NCBI GenBank assembly: GCA_951812585.1
Contig: OX638318.1
Location: forward strand, 2,478,380-2,542,379
DNA: 64,000 bases
Direction of reading: 5' to 3'
Source: Rhodothermales bacterium
GTDB taxonomy: Bacteria; Bacteroidota; Rhodothermia; Rhodothermales; Bin80
Made by a program: the position numbers and the translations under genes
Shown: piece after piece, positions 55,147 to 64,000 of the stretch
Layout of the letters: every line of letters begins with the position of its first letter
How positions within the stretch are numbered: position 1 is the stretch's first letter
The notes under the pieces: generated by a model
Databases searched by the model: none
What the model saw: only the letters and a program-made list of their open reading frames with translations
Told to the model about the DNA's origin: nothing

Positions 55147-56544
55147 TCAGTAAGCATGGCGATGCACGAAGCCCTTCCAGAGGGTCAGCACCATGATCTT
55201 GAAGTCGAGTGCGATGCTCCAGTTCTGGATGTAGTACAGGTCGTACTGGATACGCTTGTCCAGGGAGGTGTTGCCGCGCCAACCATTGACCTGGGCCCAT
55301 CCTGTGATGCCGGCCTTCATCTTGTGGCGCAGCATGTAGCGCGGAATGCGCGTCTTGAACTGATCAATGAAGACCGGTCGTTCAGGGCGCGGCCCCACCA
55401 CCGACATATCGCCCTTTAGCACGTTGATGAACTGAGGAAGCTCATCCAGGGAGGTGCGCCGAAGGAAACGTCCGAAGGGCGTGGCTCGATCTTCATCAGC
55501 CTTGGCCCAGACGGCCCCGGTCTTGGCCTCGGCGTCCACGGGCATTGACCGAAACTTGAGCATGCGGAAGCGCTGTCCGTTCAGGCTCATACGCTCCTGG
55601 CGAAACAGCACCGGGCCGGGTGAAGAGAGGCGAACGGCCAAGGCTATGATCATCAGTAGCGGTGCAGTCACCGCAAGAAACACCGCAGAAAACACCACAT
55701 CGATCACGCGCTTGGCCGTCCGCCGAAAGTCCAATGGCGCTTCGTCCATGATGTGGAGGATGGGCAGGCCATCCACTTCGCTGATGCGGCTGTTGATGAT
55801 GTCGTACTGCAGGAGGTCCGGCACCAGGCACACATGGACGAGGCGCGTGGCCAGGTCGCTCATGAGGAGTTCGATCCGATTTGCCGCGGCCAGCGGCAGG
55901 GCGATGTACACATAGTCAATGGGATCTATGGCCTCGTCCACCAGGCGCAGGATGTCCGCCGTGGTCCCCAGCACATCCGGCTCCGCCTGCTTATGGTCGT
56001 CCACAAAGCCGACCACCGAAAAGCCCATCCACGGGTACGCTTTGAACGACCGTGCCAGGCGGCGTCCTGTGACGCCGGCACCCACGATCAGAACCCTGCG
56101 CATCGAACGTCCTTGCTGCCGCGCGCGGCGTGCCGTCAGGTACAACAGCAGCCGCAGTACCACCATCGCCAGCGGCGTCAGTGCGGCGAAGATGATGATC
56201 GTCAGGCGCGAAACGTAGAAGTCGCGGTACAGTGAGAAGAACGCCATCAGGACAACCAGCGCAATGCTGACCGCCCGGCCTACGCTCAGCACCAGACGCG
56301 TCAGGCGCTGGGCACGGTTGGGTACGTACAAGCCGCTGGCCCAGAACACGATCGCAGCAACGATAATGATCCAGGGCAGGAAGGCCAGGTAGCGACTGAG
56401 CGGCAGCCACTCCGGCAGCGGCACGGGCCACTCGGCGAAAACTTCGAAGCGCAAGAAATACGCAGCCACCCAGCAGGCGCCGGTCAGCGCCATGTCGGCA
56501 GCAAACAGCAGCTGCTGAAAAAACTTGCTCTGCTCCTGCAGCAT
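55147..56544 (-). CDS. Polyprenyl-phosphate sugar phosphotransferase (WbaP/WcaJ type)
   Basis: 465 residues. Four to five N-terminal helices (to about 130), a CoA-binding-like Rossmann domain (RRVLIVGAGVTGRRLARS), then the monotopic phosphoglycosyltransferase domain beginning KRVIDVVFSAVFLAV. The catalytic block is complete: PVLFRQERMSLNGQRFRMLKFRSM, SLDELPQFINVLKGDMSVVGPRPERP and the late GITGWAQVNGWRG. It transfers a hexose-1-phosphate to undecaprenyl phosphate to start exopolysaccharide or glycan synthesis. It ends a minus-strand group with accA, nadC and the GT2 fusion. Confidence 0.94.
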   Translation of the reverse strand: MLQEQSKFFQQLLFAADMALTGACWVAAYFLRFEVFAEWPVPLPEWLPLSRYLAFLPWIIIVAAIVFWASGLYVPNRAQRLTRLVLSVGRAVSIALVVLMAFFSLYRDFYVSRLTIIIFAALTPLAMVVLRLLLYLTARRARQQGRSMRRVLIVGAGVTGRRLARSFKAYPWMGFSVVGFVDDHKQAEPDVLGTTADILRLVDEAIDPIDYVYIALPLAAANRIELLMSDLATRLVHVCLVPDLLQYDIINSRISEVDGLPILHIMDEAPLDFRRTAKRVIDVVFSAVFLAVTAPLLMIIALAVRLSSPGPVLFRQERMSLNGQRFRMLKFRSMPVDAEAKTGAVWAKADEDRATPFGRFLRRTSLDELPQFINVLKGDMSVVGPRPERPVFIDQFKTRIPRYMLRHKMKAGITGWAQVNGWRGNTSLDKRIQYDLYYIQNWSIALDFKIMVLTLWKGFVHRHAY

Positions 56545-56608: not shown

Positions 56609-57877
56609 TTAAACGGCCTGGCGCGCGCCCGCGATTGGGGCGGCATCTGGGGGATCCGACAGGAGGCGGCGCGCCGCCTCGAACAGCGTACTGCAGCCGC
56701 GAATGCAGTCCTCCCAGCGTGTGTGCTCCCGAGCGGAATGGCTGAAGCCGCCGACCGATGGCACAAAGATAAGACCCGCCGGGCCGAGCAGGGCCATGCT
56801 CTGCGCATCATGACCGGCAAGAGATGGCAGGCCTGTGGTGGTCAGTCCCAGGTGCGCTGCGGCGGCGTGGAATGTGCGCTGCACATGGCCATCCATCGTG
56901 CGCGGCTGCACCGTTTCCAGGTGCTCAAAATCCACTTCCAGGTTAAACCGTTCTGCTTCCCGGAAGGCCATCGTGCGCAGTGCGCGCTGCAGCGCGTGCG
57001 CCCGTGCGATGTCGCTGCTTCTAAACTCCATGAAACAGGCCACCGACCGTGCCACAATGTTGAACGCACCCGGCTCAAAGGTCATGTTGCCTACCGTGGC
57101 TACGCAGTCTGGGAAGCGATCCATGATGATCGTTCGTACCTGCAGTGCAAACGCACTGGCTCCCTGCGCAGCATCACGGCGCCGATCCATCGGCGTTGTT
57201 CCCGCATGATTTGCCGTGCCGCGGAAGGTGACCAGGTACATGAAGATTCCCACCATGCCGGTGACCACGCCGATATTGGTACCGGACGACTCCAGGCGCG
57301 TGCCTTGCTCAATGTGAAGCTCCAGGTAGGCCTTGAACTCCTCTTCTGCGCGGGAAGCTGCGAGGATGCCACTCCTGGTGAGTCCAGCCCGCGCCAGCCG
57401 CTTCTCAAAAACTGCCGGATTGCCCCTGGGGTTTGCAAGGTCTCGCGCGGTTAGCTGCCCGCTGATCGCGCGGCTGCCCATCAGGGACACCCATGTGCCT
57501 TCTTCATCGGTAAAGTCGATGACTTCCAAGTTCGCATTAAATGCTTCGCCGCATTCGTGCAGCGCAAGCAGCACCTCATAAGCTGCCGCAACGCCGAGCG
57601 CACCGTCGAACCGTCCGCCTTCGGGCACCGAGTCCAGGTGTGAGCCGATCATCAGCGTCGGCGCCGCGGGACCGGCGGCCTGCCAGCGCGCCGATACGTT
57701 GCCAGCACCATCGGTGTGGACGGCAAATCCACCGGCGGTAATCATCTCGGCAAACCGCTGCCGTGCGGCCAGGTGGGCGGTGCTTAGCGCCGGGCGGTTC
57801 AGCCCGCCTTCGGGCGTGCGCCCATCGGTCGTGAGCGCATCAAATGTCGCGCGCAAGCGCTGCTCATCAATGCTCAT
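56609..57877 (-). CDS. M20-family Zn-dependent amidohydrolase (hydantoinase/carbamoylase type)
   Basis: 422 residues. LMIGSHLDSVPEGGRFDGALGV holds the metal His-Asp pair, followed by FTDEEGTW, the ELHIEQG stretch, the dimerisation lid, and the conserved TANHAGTTPMDRRRDA. SLAGHDAQSMA is near the C-terminus. Likely N-carbamoyl-L-amino acid hydrolase or allantoate amidohydrolase; the substrate is not resolvable. Overlaps the nadC end by 11 nt. Confidence 0.92.
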   Translation of the reverse strand: MSIDEQRLRATFDALTTDGRTPEGGLNRPALSTAHLAARQRFAEMITAGGFAVHTDGAGNVSARWQAAGPAAPTLMIGSHLDSVPEGGRFDGALGVAAAYEVLLALHECGEAFNANLEVIDFTDEEGTWVSLMGSRAISGQLTARDLANPRGNPAVFEKRLARAGLTRSGILAASRAEEEFKAYLELHIEQGTRLESSGTNIGVVTGMVGIFMYLVTFRGTANHAGTTPMDRRRDAAQGASAFALQVRTIIMDRFPDCVATVGNMTFEPGAFNIVARSVACFMEFRSSDIARAHALQRALRTMAFREAERFNLEVDFEHLETVQPRTMDGHVQRTFHAAAAHLGLTTTGLPSLAGHDAQSMALLGPAGLIFVPSVGGFSHSAREHTRWEDCIRGCSTLFEAARRLLSDPPDAAPIAGARQAV

Positions 57878-58796
57878 AGGCGCTAGCCGGTGCGAGCTCT
57901 AGTGCGATATCAAGCGCCTGGACGGAATGTGTCAGCGCGCCGCACGAAATGTAATCCACCCCCGTTGCTGCAATGAAAGGGGCCGACTGAAGCGTAATGT
58001 TCCCCGAGGCTTCGGTAACATACCGATGTCCAACACGGGCCAACGCGGCCTCCAGGAGCGTGGTATCCACCACACCGTCCGCGGACTGGTACACCATGTT
58101 ATCGAGCAGGAGCTCATCGAAGCCGCCGGCAGCGAGCGCTTCCTCCAGTTCCTCCAGCGTATGCACTTCTACTTCGATGCGCATACCCGGCTTGTGCCGG
58201 TCCCGGTAGGCACCGGCGCGCCGAATGGCTGCTGCCACGCCGCTTGCGGCAGCAATATGGTTGTCCTTGATCAGAAAGCGGTCGTAGAGGCCAAGACGGT
58301 GGTTTTCTCCGCCTCCGAGCTTCACGGCCCACTTGTCCAAAAAGCTTAGGCCGGGCGCCGTCTTGCGTGTGTCGCGCACCCGGACCGGGTGCGCAGCTTG
58401 TACCAGCGCGCGGGTCGCGGTGGCAATGCCGCTCATGCGCTGCAGCAGGTTAAGTGCCAGGCGCTCGCATTGTAGGATGGCCCGTGTGCAGCCGCGTACC
58501 ATGCCCAGGGGATCGCCCGCTGCTATGCCTTCGCCGTCGCGGACTCGCCAGTCGATGCAGGAGCCGGCGTCCATCAGGGTGAAGACGCGTTCTGCCACAT
58601 GCAGTCCCGCGATGGTGCCCGCCGCGCGCGCAATAAATTGCCCGGTCGCCTCCGACTCTGCGTCCACCGTAGCCAGCGATGTTACGTCTCCCACACCTAT
58701 GTCGGCCTCCAGTGCGCGGCGAAGGAAGGTGTCTAGCAGGGTGCGATCCAAGTATGCGGGCAGCTGGCTTCGCGCCCTGCGCCCGTGTCTAGGCAT
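57867..58796 (-). CDS. nadC: Nicotinate-nucleotide pyrophosphorylase (quinolinate phosphoribosyltransferase)
   Basis: 309 residues. It makes nicotinate mononucleotide from quinolinate and PRPP. Blocks seen are [62 protein letters not shown] and the final [23 protein letters not shown]. It overlaps accA by 8 nt and the M20 gene by 11 nt. No nadA or nadB is present. Confidence 0.96.
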
Positions 58797-59784
58797 TTCC
58801 CTCGCTGAACTTGCCGATCTGGTCCAGCCGTTCGTGTCGAACTGCGATCAGTGTTTCTGGACTCAGGGTGCACAGCTCTTGCATCGCGGCAGCCGCAGCA
58901 CGGCCAACGGCATTGAAGGCGGCATCGGGATCACGATGCGCGCCTCCCAGCGGTTCCGGGACGATGGTGTCAATGACACCGAACTTCTTGAGGTCTTTCG
59001 CTGTCAGCCTTAAGGCACGGGCCGCTTCCTCCCGATAGTCCCAGGATCGCCACAGGATGGAGGAGCAGCTTTCCGGTGCGATCACCGAGTACCAGGCATT
59101 CTCCAGCATCAGCATGCGGTCGCCCACGCCGATGCCCAGCGCGCCGCCGCTGGCACCCTCGCCGATGATCACCACGATGATGGGCACGGGCAGGCATGCC
59201 ATGTCAAAGAGGTTGCGGGCGATCGCTTCGGCCTGCCCACGTTCTTCGGCTTCCATGCCAGGATAGGCACCCGGCGTATCCAAAAGGCACAGGATGGGCT
59301 TGCCGAACTTGGCGGCTATGCGCATGAGCCGTCCCGCCTTGCGGTATCCCTCCGGGTTTGGCATGCCGAATCGGCGATACTTGCGCTGCCGAGTGTCGCG
59401 GCCTTTCTGGTGTCCCACGACCAGGACGGTGCGATCGATATAGTCGTAGTTGGAGCCGCGAAACGTTGCAAAGCCACTTACGATGGCCGGGTCGTCGGCA
59501 TAGTAGCGGTCGCCCCGAAGCTCTACAAAGCCCGTGGTCAAGGCTTCGACGTAGTTCAACGTGTACGGTCGAAGCGGATGCCGCGCGAGCTGCACCCGCT
59601 GCCAGCGTGTCAGGTTCTGGTAAATGGAGCTGCGCAGTTCATCCACGCGCTTGTCCAGCTCCGCTATTTCCTGCGTCAAGTCGACTCCATTGGTGTCCAG
59701 CGCGCGCATCTCGTTCAGCTTCATTTCAAGCTCAACAAGCGGCTTTTCGAAGTCTAACAGATATGCAGCCTGGTTCTTCGCCAT
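58789..59784 (-). CDS. accA: Acetyl-CoA carboxylase carboxyltransferase subunit alpha
   Basis: 331 residues from ATG 59784; the frame is open to 59838. [16 protein letters not shown] at the start, [68 protein letters not shown] and the oxyanion [21 protein letters not shown] are AccA landmarks. It works with AccD, AccB and AccC, none of which is in the window. Head of the accA-nadC-M20 overlapping set. Confidence 0.96.
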
Positions 59785-59844
59785 GGGCGCAAATCTACAT
59801 ACATGCGCCCCGGAGGTTTCCTGGGCGCGCTTCCGCACGCGAAC

Positions 59845-60009: not shown

Positions 60010-62097
60010 TTATGCCAAGCGCATCAGGCGAATGGCACGAAGGACTATGAGCCAGTCCACCAGTGCGGACTGGCGTTGCACGTAGGACCAGTACACCTGT
60101 TCTGCGTCGGCGTGTGCGTCCACGCTGTGCGGTCCCAGCGACTCCGTCACGGCAAAGACACCAGGACGCAGCGCCCACTCTTCTGGAGGCTCAAACCCTT
60201 CTCCCGCGCGATATCCTACGACAGAAACGCGTCCGCGAAGTACCGAAGGCCATTGCCGGGTGCGGGCCGCCAGGGCTTTCCAGAATGGCCTTGACCGCAG
60301 AAGACGCGCCGCCAATAGCACCCAAGGGTGTGCCGCAGCCGTAAGGAGCGCCAGGGTACCATCAAAAATCCGGTGGGCCGCGGCGCTGCGGATGTAGCCG
60401 AGCGCCTCCTGGGCTTCCATCACCGCCGCGCCCTGAAGGAGTGCCACCGACGCCTTGCCGATGACATGCGCATGATTCTGTGCCAGGATACTGGTCTCCA
60501 GCGGCAGTCCGCTGAGTCGTCGCGTCAGTGTGAAGATCGTCCTATTGGATAGACTGGCCGCTGCAAAGACGACGGCTTGCGCCTCATGGGCCTGCACCAG
60601 GTCACGAAGCGTTTCGATCGTGCCCAGGCTGGGCATACCGATAATGGACTCATCACATGGAGCGGAAGGCACATAGCCGATTATGGCGAACGGGGGCGCG
60701 TCCATAACGCGCTGGGCCTCCTGCAGGCGCTGTGCTTCCCGGGCATCGCCTACAAAGAGCGTGCGTAGTGGCAACTGTGTGCGCGCTTTGCGCAGCAGTC
60801 GGTATGCGGTCAGCGCGAGGATGCTCCCGGGCAGGCTGGCCAGCACCACGGCCCGCGAAAACGCAATGGACTTCACAAAAAACGAAGTGCTGGACAAGAG
60901 CAGCACGGCCAGAGAGACCCCGGCGACGACGGCACCCAGGTGCCGTCCCTGGCCCTGGTAGCCACCCAGGATGCCGATAGTGCTGACCGCGATGAGCGCA
61001 AAAGAAGGTGCTATGAGCCAGTAGAACAGCGATGGAAACGCCAGGCCGAGCTGCATGGATCGCACTAGGCCCATGGCGGCCATGACGCCGAAGACCAGCA
61101 CGGCATCGCGCACCGCGCGATGCCGGCAAACTCTGCGCAGCGCGGAAAGGCATCCGCGCCCAACCACGGCAGCCCTGAGCAGCCACAACAAGAGCGGCGG
61201 GTACCGCCGGCGCAGGTGCTTTTCCGCAAAGCGGATCATGGCCCCGTAGAAGAGGCGCACGTAGCGCAGCTGGTTCTTCTTGGTGCTTTCGCCCTTGTAG
61301 TGAATGATGCGGGTGTCGGGCGTATAGTAGATCTTCCAGCCGGCCTCTTGGAAGCGGAAGCACCAGTCGAGGTCTTCGCCGTACATGAAGAAGTCCTCAT
61401 CAAAGACTCCTGGGCCCCCTTGGCCTGTGATGTCGCCAAGGCGTGCGTCCAGTGCAGCGCGGCGGGACGCTTCGTCCAGGGCGCTGTACGCGGCGGCGGA
61501 ATAGGAGATGGCGGCCCGCCGTACCATCATGCAGCTGCCGCTGAGTGCGTCCACCTCGGTAATCTGGTCGGTGGGCACATGGCCCAAGTTGTATCGCCCG
61601 AAGAGGCGGCTCCTTGGAAAGAGGCGGCTCAGCCCGGTCATCCGAAAGAACGCTACCAGCGGCGTCGGAAACGCCCGCCGGCTTTCCGGGGCAAAAGACC
61701 CATCGGGGTTAAGGATCTGGCATCCTGCCGCCGCTGTATCCGGGTGGGCGTCCAGGAATGCGATCAGCGTGCCGACGGTGGATTCTTCAACGAGCGTGTC
61801 CGGGTTGAGGATGAAGAGGTACCGCCCGCGCGCCTGTTTGATCGCCTGGTTGTTGGCTCTGGCGAAGCCTACGTTGTCTTCATTTGCAATCAGCGTAACC
61901 TCTGGAAACTCTCGCCGCACCATTTCGCAGGAGCCGTCCACGCTGTGGTTGTCTACGACCAGTATTTCTGCGCGGAGGGTGCCAAGGCTTTGCTTCACGC
62001 TCCGCAGCGATTCCTCCAGGAACGCACGCACGTTGAAGTTGACGATAATGACAGACACGTCCAGATGGCCAGGACGTGTGGAAGCCGGCGCACTCAT
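60010..62097 (-). CDS. GT2 glycosyltransferase fused to a catalytically truncated phosphoglycosyltransferase-like module
   Basis: 695 residues. Residues 1 to about 300 are a GT2 domain of the rhamnosyltransferase kind: VSVIIVNFNVR (14-24), FILNPD (95-100), DEDFFMYGEDLDWCFR (223-238). About 321-440 are membrane helices. Then comes a CoA-binding-like Rossmann segment (LRTLFVGDAREAQRL, from 464) and a C-terminal region that follows the PGT outline: HRIFDGTLALL (585-595), VLRGRVSVVGYRA (629-641), LRPGVFAV (653-660), SALVDWLIVLRAI (687 on). About 60 residues carrying the RQER, KFRSM and Asp-Glu catalytic elements, present in the intact neighbour at 55147-56544, are missing, and GPRP reads GYRA. 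The glycosyltransferase is probably active and the PGT part is probably structural. Confidence 0.88.
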   Translation of the reverse strand: MSAPASTRPGHLDVSVIIVNFNVRAFLEESLRSVKQSLGTLRAEILVVDNHSVDGSCEMVRREFPEVTLIANEDNVGFARANNQAIKQARGRYLFILNPDTLVEESTVGTLIAFLDAHPDTAAAGCQILNPDGSFAPESRRAFPTPLVAFFRMTGLSRLFPRSRLFGRYNLGHVPTDQITEVDALSGSCMMVRRAAISYSAAAYSALDEASRRAALDARLGDITGQGGPGVFDEDFFMYGEDLDWCFRFQEAGWKIYYTPDTRIIHYKGESTKKNQLRYVRLFYGAMIRFAEKHLRRRYPPLLLWLLRAAVVGRGCLSALRRVCRHRAVRDAVLVFGVMAAMGLVRSMQLGLAFPSLFYWLIAPSFALIAVSTIGILGGYQGQGRHLGAVVAGVSLAVLLLSSTSFFVKSIAFSRAVVLASLPGSILALTAYRLLRKARTQLPLRTLFVGDAREAQRLQEAQRVMDAPPFAIIGYVPSAPCDESIIGMPSLGTIETLRDLVQAHEAQAVVFAAASLSNRTIFTLTRRLSGLPLETSILAQNHAHVIGKASVALLQGAAVMEAQEALGYIRSAAAHRIFDGTLALLTAAAHPWVLLAARLLRSRPFWKALAARTRQWPSVLRGRVSVVGYRAGEGFEPPEEWALRPGVFAVTESLGPHSVDAHADAEQVYWSYVQRQSALVDWLIVLRAIRLMRLA

Positions 62098-62881: not shown

Positions 62882-64000
62882 ATGAAGATCACCTTATTGC
62901 TTACGGCGCTGGGCTGCATGCTTGCGCCCGTTCAGGCCCAGGACCTCGACGTGATTCTTCACGAGCGCCGAGCGGCACGGCATGCTCTGCACAAGGCCAT
63001 GCCGCCATCCCATCAAGCGATGGCCAGCGCCGCGGATTCGATGGTACTGGTTGACCTCTATCATGACACGCAGGGTGTCAACTGGGTTGTGCGTACGGGT
63101 TGGCTGAGCGGCCCTGTCAGCACTTGGCACGGCGTAGCCCTTACCCCTTCGGGGCGTGTCACCGGCCTGGATCTGCAATCCAACGGCCTGTCTGGTGCGT
63201 TGCCCAACGCGCTCGGCAACTTGGACTCGCTCCGCACGCTGTACCTCGCCAACAACTTCATCACGGGGGCCATTCCGGACTCGGTCGGCGCGCTTCCCAA
63301 GCTGGAGGTGCTCAGTCTCTGGAGCAATCGCCTCAGTGGCGCGATCCCCGTTTCGCTGGGTCGGCTGCTGTCGCTGCGAGACCTGCTGCTCTTTGACAAT
63401 GATCTGAGTGGGTCCATACCGGATTCGCTGGGTAACCTGCAGCGGCTGGATCGACTGTGGCTGGACTTCAACGAGCTGGAGGGGCCACTGCCTGCGGCGC
63501 TGTTCAGGCTGTCGATGCTCCGGGAGTTCTTCCTCGATGCGAACAAGCTTACGGGCCCGCTGCCATCCGGACTTTCCGGGCTGACCAGTGTGATTTCGCT
63601 CTACGCAGGGCACAACCAGCTCACGGGACCGCTGCCTCCCGAGCTGAAGTCCCTGCCCGCACTGCAGAACCTGTCGCTGGCGCACAACAGCCACGACGGC
63701 ACGTTTCCCGTAGAAATCGCGGAGACTCCCAACCTTGTCAAGCTGCTGCTCAGCGGCAATCAGCTTACGGGCAGCATCCCGCCGGCGCTGGCGGATCGCT
63801 CCAAGCTCACGACACTGGAGCTCGCTGGTAACAGCCTTACGGGTCCGATCCCGGCAGCGGTCGGCCTGATCCGCGAGCTTAGGATACTGGACCTTGGCGG
63901 GAATCAGCTTACGGGTTCCATGCCCAACACACTGGGATGGGCCACGGCGCTGCGAATGCTGGACCTGTCGAACAATCAGCTCAGCGGCTCGTTGCCGCAG
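62882..64000 (+). CDS. Secreted plant-type leucine-rich-repeat protein (runs off the window)
   Basis: 373 codons, open to the last base. A signal peptide (MKITLLLTALGCMLAPVQAQ) is followed by an LRRNT_2-like cap (LVDLYHDTQGVNWVVR... STWHGVALTPSGRVTGLDL, about 60-102) and at least ten 24-residue plant-type repeats with the consensus L..L.L..N.L.G.IP..LG.L (for example LDLGGNQLTGSMPNTLG). Such proteins are surface or secreted binding proteins; many in this phylum end in a T9SS signal, which lies beyond the window. No partner gene is visible. Confidence 0.9.
   Translation, partial: MKITLLLTALGCMLAPVQAQDLDVILHERRAARHALHKAMPPSHQAMASAADSMVLVDLYHDTQGVNWVVRTGWLSGPVSTWHGVALTPSGRVTGLDLQSNGLSGALPNALGNLDSLRTLYLANNFITGAIPDSVGALPKLEVLSLWSNRLSGAIPVSLGRLLSLRDLLLFDNDLSGSIPDSLGNLQRLDRLWLDFNELEGPLPAALFRLSMLREFFLDANKLTGPLPSGLSGLTSVISLYAGHNQLTGPLPPELKSLPALQNLSLAHNSHDGTFPVEIAETPNLVKLLLSGNQLTGSIPPALADRSKLTTLELAGNSLTGPIPAAVGLIRELRILDLGGNQLTGSMPNTLGWATALRMLDLSNNQLSGSLPQ

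Follow-up and report, generated by a model that had tools for sequence, protein, structure and literature searches.

A GT2 glycosyltransferase fused to a predicted pseudo-phosphoglycosyltransferase is widespread in the FCB group and often encoded near an intact phosphoglycosyltransferase

Results

The fusion gene and its surroundings

We analysed a window of 64,000 nucleotides (the whole stretch of DNA under study, from contig OX638318.1 of a Rhodothermales bacterium), in which an open reading frame with an ATG start at 60010..62097(-) encodes a protein of 695 aa, laid out from its N terminus as a GT2 domain, a four-helix bundle, a DUF and a phosphoglycosyltransferase (PGT) remnant. This fusion gene is present in a single copy in its genome, and the match of its product to the family profile spans the whole length. 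The genes next in order, all on the same strand, are accA, its usual downstream neighbour (acetyl-CoA carboxylase carboxyltransferase alpha, 58789..59838(-)), nadC (quinolinate phosphoribosyltransferase, 57867..58796(-)) and an M20-type peptidase/amidase-like gene (56609..57877(-)), each assigned with Pfam, followed by a large monotopic PGT (Lg-PGT) of the WcaJ type (55147..56544(-)). The latter, the nearby initiator and proposed partner of the fusion, is one of two PF02397 proteins in the genome, and its score of 481 bits against TIGR03023 (cut-off 411) bears out the initial annotation, which had called it intact. On the opposite strand, an open reading frame leaving the window end (62882-64000(+)) has a translation that by eye resembles a leucine-rich-repeat protein.

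The GT2 (GT-A) domain occupies approximately residues 12-300 (61198..62064(-)), as delimited by Pfam, alignments and a structure match. PF00535 recognised it with 79 bits (E 5e-22, cut-off 23.3) and matched 74 of 74 family members at E<=0.01, and the best structure match of this part was 6p61 (Z 23.5, 1.9 Å over 186 residues). Residues D49, D54, N98-P-D100 and E241-D242-x-D244, which we take to be the GT-A Asp motifs and the catalytic-base region, were invariant in alignments of 42 and of 74 family members, in agreement with the earlier view of an apparently good GT2 domain. From its intact catalytic motifs and fold, the GT2 half is predicted to be an active glycosyltransferase.

The remainder of the protein, from approximately residue 325 to 694, tracks the order of an Lg-PGT with the middle of the PGT domain absent. 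Membrane helices at about residues 301-440 (60778..61197(-)), placed with models and an alignment to the intact PGT, comprise a lead-in helix and an Lg-PGT-type four-helix bundle; a DUF/CoA_binding_3 domain follows at about residues 441-556 (60430..60777(-); PF13727, 28.8 bits vs a cut-off of 25; structure match 3nkl, Z 11.4). The PGT remnant without catalytic core, delimited by alignments and a match to PglC, covers about residues 568-694 (60016..60396(-)) and contains the D579-x11-P591 re-entrant helix, VLRGxxSVVG, LRPG, Y672, D681 and the closing helix. The WbaP/WcaJ-like motif order that had been read in the C-terminal half was recovered (RIFD at 576, VLRG at 619, SVVGYR at 625, LRPG at 643 and VDWL at 680). 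By contrast with the intact enzyme, the profiles of the complete domain scored below their cut-offs, with 13.5 bits for Bac_transf PF02397 (cut-off 27; profile positions 95-175 of 179, which is its last part) and 65.7 bits for TIGR03025 (cut-off 295.55).

Loss of the catalytic core and retention of the membrane anchor

Alignment to the intact PGT of the window placed QER, KFRSM and the Asp-Glu dyad inside the stretch absent from the fusion, as the initial annotation had proposed, although its estimate of about 17 vs 75 residues between the PGT blocks proved too low: the gap between block 1 and block 2 measures 33 residues in the fusion vs 86 in the intact enzyme, so that about 53 residues are missing, and the distance from the block-1 Asp to VLRG/VLKG is 39 vs 92 residues. 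In the fusion itself, the position of PglC K59 lies in a gap, R88 is aligned to W, and the Arg of PRP is aligned to the R of GYRA, the altered form of GPRP noticed earlier (SVVGYR vs VVGPRP in the intact enzyme).

The homologues were compared with 53 distinct Lg-PGTs drawn from the same loci, from which a fusion picked up as a PGT (L036) had been removed; the family set of 138 rows excludes three members cut by contig ends (L073, L088 and L127) and includes shortened forms (rows L063 and L067 of the f17 form described below, and frames of 553-564 aa at L133, L165 and L171). The block was 5-64 residues long in 135 distinct homologues vs 88-91 in the 53 intact PGTs; it was short in 135 of 135, well beyond Rhodothermota, and an intact catalytic block occurred in none of the 135 measured. 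The Asp-Glu dyad was found in 0/135 distinct members vs 53/53 intact enzymes, and the individual residues were nearly as rare: Lys (PglC K59) in 1/135, Arg (R88) in 7/135, Asp (D93) in 5/135, Glu (E94) in 1/135 and the Arg of PRP, presumably the equivalent of PglC R111, in 11/135, each vs 53/53. At most one of these five catalytic or substrate residues was present per row among the 138 family rows, in 5 of which the dyad columns were gapped.

The anchor residues showed the opposite pattern, with the re-entrant helix Asp kept in 114/135 members, its Pro in 125/135 and the C-terminal Asp, which is thought to stabilise the re-entrant helix (PMC12802240), in 130/135; the roles of K59, R88, D93, E94 and these three residues follow section 8 of that source. 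Together with the missing dyad, these counts uphold the earlier reading that PGT catalysis was lost and the rest retained. The Asp-Pro spacing was 12 in 41 of the 138 rows, 11 in 63, and other in 5, the remaining 29 lacking at least one of the two residues, vs 12 in 54/54 intact enzymes and 11 in the fusion. Across the bundle and DUF, 16 positions were common to >=85% of intact enzymes, of which seven (D17, G71, Y73, R131, G155, G179 and G193 in intact numbering) were kept by 89-99% of members and nine were not. In alignments of family members, the shortened block has not gained a conserved polar cluster. Judged by these alignments, the C-terminal half is a PGT from which the active site has been excised and in which much of the membrane platform is retained. 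Even with E<=0.01 as threshold, PF02397 found 30 of 74 members (best member E 5.3e-21), and annotation with this profile overlooks many such pseudo-PGT proteins.

Predicted structure and selection

The model of the full-length fusion had a pLDDT of 90.4 and a pTM of 0.85, and its fold searches returned GT2-type matches only among the 50 matches listed, so the C-terminal half was folded and searched separately (pLDDT 88.8, pTM 0.69). Its sole Foldseek match in the PDB under E 0.001 was WbaP (8T53, E 1.4e-8, overall rmsd 15.8), and VIA-align 2 applied to Foldseek's 1000 best chains gave Z 12.8 for WbaP (321 residues, rmsd 14.5) and Z 10.0 for PglC (8e37; 120 residues, rmsd 4.0), the latter over model residues 268-396, which correspond to the remnant. 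The large rmsd with WbaP would be as expected if the domains differ in mutual placement. The predicted C-terminal half is thus PGT-like, and the opposite proposal is ruled out by these two matches and by the PF02397 matches in family members. Two other origins were considered and are not favoured: derivation from a PglF-like dehydratase, given PF02397 in 30/74 members and the alignment of the remnant with PglC, and recent copying of the linked PGT, given a tree in which 8 fusion C-halves grouped apart from 31 PGTs (with a warning for long branches).

Selection on the remnant, which the initial annotation had named as a check, was estimated by NG86. Twelve pairs were tried, two of which (L128/L132 and L114/L126) were saturated and gave no remnant value; the other ten partly share members (L006, L007, L008 and L017 appear repeatedly), and some approach saturation. 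In these ten pairs, dN/dS was 0.06-0.31 for the remnant and 0.057-0.087 for the GT2 part, with the remnant exceeding the GT2 part in nine. Purifying selection acts on the remnant, in most pairs less strongly than on the GT2 part.

Distribution and reduced forms

Relatives of the fusion protein were detected in 218 of 296 phylum genomes at E<=1e-20, many of them by the GT2 part only among the matches listed, and a profile built from 74 members matched 177/296 at E<=1e-90, at least 131 of these matches being full length. Carriers named among the best 80 of 587 relatives are Rhodothermales, Ignavibacteria, Kryptonium, Bacteroidales, Cytophagales, Flavobacteriales, Chitinophagaceae, Saprospiraceae, Neomarinimicrobiota, KSB1 and TA06, as well as Roseithermus sacchariphilus. 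Frames of 564 aa in Calditrichaeota have a shortened C-terminal half. Within the sampled genomes, the fusion is an FCB-group protein.

Partial forms were examined in 20 genomes, with 15 of the 20 proteins read after a motif filter. In the f17 form (4/4 genomes), the bundle is kept (43-50 bits) and the remnant, at <=3 bits, is no longer recognisable by profile; in the GT2-only form (16 genomes), both bundle and remnant are gone. A DUF fragment of 14-27 bits persisted in 9 of 11 GT2-only proteins read; it corresponds largely to the final 50 positions of the 122-position profile. An intact PGT lay within 10 kb in 4/4 f17 genomes and in 5/16 GT2-only genomes (G100, G054, G159, G163 and G021), which indicates that the gene can survive the loss of bundle and remnant, and that PGT linkage is independent of them. 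As a separate observation, GT2-only relatives of ~390-430 aa from several families (L178-L193) end in a short DUF-like tail, most of them shortly after an I-x-G-[KSP] motif.

Linkage to an intact PGT

Gene neighbourhoods were compared at 92 loci (the window included), retained from 141 after motif filtering and removal of duplicates. An intact PGT was near the fusion in 36/92 loci, on the same strand in 35 and on the opposite strand in one (L166). Other recurrent neighbours were a thioesterase-like gene (28/92), nadC (25/92), a flippase (16/92) and a polyprenyl-phosphate-sugar-synthase-like (DPM-like) GT2 (26/92, in 20 of which it lay directly upstream at a distance of 1-91 bp). In the source genome, the best DPM-like gene is unlinked to the fusion; elsewhere, this DPM/PpgS-like GT2 of ~240 aa often sits between fusion and intact PGT (L036, L038, L047, L049, L050, L054 and others). 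The essential gene accA followed downstream on the same strand in 42/92 loci and is a standing neighbour across distant lineages, for which the reason is not obvious. When the 62 loci with >=5 kb on both sides were considered, accA was near in 27, of which 20 also had a PGT, and recR or an E2 acyltransferase was near in 18, of which 0 had a PGT; the named examples of this recR/E2 context are Bacteroidia (L117, L128, L139, L157 and L170).

At the level of genomes, an intact PF02397 protein occurred in 131/131 full-fusion genomes vs 265/296 in the whole sample (uncorrected for kinship), and a PGT lay within 10 kb on the same strand in at least 89/131, a count made up of 77 computed cases and 12 matched by eye (G086, G139, G191, G175, G136, G208, G259, G101, G039, G196, G247 and G043). 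The chance expectation for a PGT within 10 kb is ~1%, by arithmetic for the source genome (2 PGTs in 3.2 Mb). In some genomes (for example G065, G069 and G089), the single PF02397 protein among the matches listed was the linked one. The placement of the linked PGT varied, from ~0.75 kb upstream to ~2.1 kb or 3-7 kb downstream, among others.

A PGT tree of 69 sequences was built from the intact PGT of the window and 68 PGTs passing the motif filter (49 linked, and 19 of 20 fetched unlinked ones, which had been hand-picked from listed places), with L166 left out by hand. One clade of 13 rows (support 1.0) contained the linked PGTs of the bacterial order of the window and consisted of linked sequences only, and the other 37 linked PGTs fell into another clade (45 rows, support 0.96), which they shared with 8 unlinked sequences, each a second PGT from the window's order; a smaller tree repeated this two-clade split. 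For the PGT that is linked in other lineages, the orthologue in the window's order is the unlinked copy. Two clades of linked PGTs imply that different PGTs became linked on at least two occasions, or that the partner was swapped, and favour a functional tie over inherited gene order alone.

At some loci (L041:11623-14106(-), also L039, L048 and L073), the linked PGT forms the C-terminal half of a protein of 828-834 aa, whose N-terminal half is WecA/MraY-like and polytopic, which would place both PGT superfamilies in one polypeptide. The L041 protein scored 150.9 bits against TIGR02380 (below the cut-off of 326) and 419 bits against TIGR03025 (above the cut-off), and L073 was placed with this type from length and alignment only.

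Discussion

We propose, with about even confidence, that the GT2 domain is held by a pseudo-PGT platform that most likely associates with the nearby intact Lg-PGT. With the catalytic core gone, the four-helix bundle, DUF, re-entrant helix and closing interfacial helices would form a membrane platform. This would position the active site of the GT2 on the cytoplasmic side of the inner membrane, next to a lipid-linked acceptor to which the GT2 would add a sugar. WbaP pairs through its bundle and DUF (PMC10942596), and the fusion, which keeps a bundle and DUF of this type, may pair with the linked Lg-PGT through surfaces of the WbaP-dimer kind, so that Und-PP-sugar from the intact PGT could be handed to the GT2 for the next sugar; the DUF may additionally respond to uridine nucleotides in the way reported for WbaP. 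The hetero-association, the hand-over, the donor and the acceptor are what we infer. This docking is favoured by the retained anchor, selection on the remnant, the matches to WbaP and PglC, the conserved PGT linkage and the invariant GT2 motifs. It is weakened by the f17 and GT2-only lineages, which dispense with most or all of the remnant (the GT2-only ones also with the bundle) and some of which are still PGT-linked, by the recR/E2 context, in which a close PGT occurs at 0/18 loci, by the opposite strand of the PGT at L166, and by the nine of 16 conserved bundle/DUF positions that members did not keep. The scaffold suggested in the initial annotation, which would hold the glycosyltransferase next to the acceptor or the active PGT, hence stands in part: the conserved PGT linkage fits it, but a strict scaffold does not agree with the lineages that dropped bundle and remnant. 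That a working PGT is usually encoded nearby points to a coupling between the first and second steps of glycan assembly. More tentatively, the fusion might be an FCB-wide docking subunit, in which a de-catalysed PGT-GT forms a hetero-oligomer with the initiating Lg-PGT for a two-sugar hand-over, with the partner switched in the window's order.

Several other explanations need to be weighed against docking. The PGT-derived half could be a plain membrane anchor that only fixes the GT2 at the interface and makes no PGT contact, the linkage reflecting a shared pathway. We think this rather unlikely, even though the retained parts are precisely the anchor, the linkage persists without the remnant in 4/4 f17 and 5/16 GT2-only genomes, and 42 of the 131 fusion genomes have no PGT within 10 kb among the matches listed, because bundle, DUF and remnant together far exceed what anchoring needs and a DUF fragment outlasts the loss of the bundle, which is unexpected for an anchor. 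That same persistence, in 9 of the 11 GT2-only proteins read and with neither bundle nor remnant, would suit a regulator in which selection acts on the DUF, through which uridine nucleotides tune the GT2, with bundle and remnant as a dispensable mount; in WbaP, UMP, UDP and UTP stabilise the DUF, and UMP acts as an inhibitor of the enzyme (PMC10942596). Such a role seems improbable to us, as the persisting fragment is mostly the last 50 of 122 positions, which makes a full nucleotide site doubtful, and the remnant is itself under selection.

Selection also bears on whether the C-terminal half is a decaying relic of an ancestral bifunctional PGT-GT in the process of loss. A stepwise reduction, from a full remnant through a mostly lost one (f17) to a GT2 with a DUF fragment, and the higher dN/dS of the remnant than of the GT2 in 9/10 pairs would be in keeping with decay, but every one of the ten pairs has a remnant dN/dS well under 1, 84-96% of distinct members keep the anchor residues, and a living bifunctional ancestor with its core intact did not turn up among the homologues measured, so we regard decay as very unlikely. 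It is scarcely credible that the C-terminal half acquired another catalytic activity, for which no support was seen: a new conserved polar cluster did not appear, and the residues retained are those of the anchor. A local artefact or recent deletion in the source assembly, likewise without support, is ruled out for practical purposes by the same loss, a short block and no dyad, in 135/135 distinct homologues.

The monotopic PGT fold can, on our reading, survive as a membrane platform after excision of its core. To our knowledge, it is not settled for bacterial glycan assembly whether PGTs and downstream glycosyltransferases form physical complexes; a conserved pseudo-PGT-GT near an active PGT would be a natural test of such complexes, in which the genome itself names the likely partner. 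Pseudo-PGTs fused to a glycosyltransferase are widespread in the FCB group, and our searches of the open-licence PMC literature yielded no account of a GT2 with a dead PGT fused to it. FpgA of F. psychrophilum is ruled out as a characterised member by its length of 319 aa (PMC4293000), and the P. gingivalis WbaP and Gtf genes are treated in PMC8003790, in the relevant part of which lengths and domains are not given.

Among known systems, the Lg-PGTs WbaP, WcaJ and EpsZ share with the fusion the four-helix bundle, the PF13727 DUF and the closing helix with its Asp, and resemble it in the D-x(11/12)-P re-entrant helix, whose spacing of 12 in the intact enzymes is often 11 in the fusion family, whereas the fusion family lacks the equivalents of K59, R88, D93, E94 and the PRP Arg in nearly all members and carries these parts behind a GT2. 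The Bi-PGTs, as described in PMC10942596, resemble it in joining a PGT-derived domain to a second functional domain and differ in their active PGT core, the PGT part of the fusion being inactive as judged by its sequence. PglF-like dehydratases, according to the same source, reuse the Lg-PGT bundle and DUF module with another enzyme domain; the fusion, in which Pfam matched no dehydratase domain, instead has an N-terminal GT2 and a PGT remnant after the DUF. EpsW-EpsZ of Myxococcus xanthus offers a precedent for a partner protein that acts on an Lg-PGT, as proposed via its dimer, although EpsW is a response regulator and neither a glycosyltransferase nor a pseudo-PGT (PMC12802240). Finally, the GT2 enzymes of polysaccharide assembly are like the fusion in fold and catalytic motifs, to which the fusion adds a C-terminal pseudo-PGT half.
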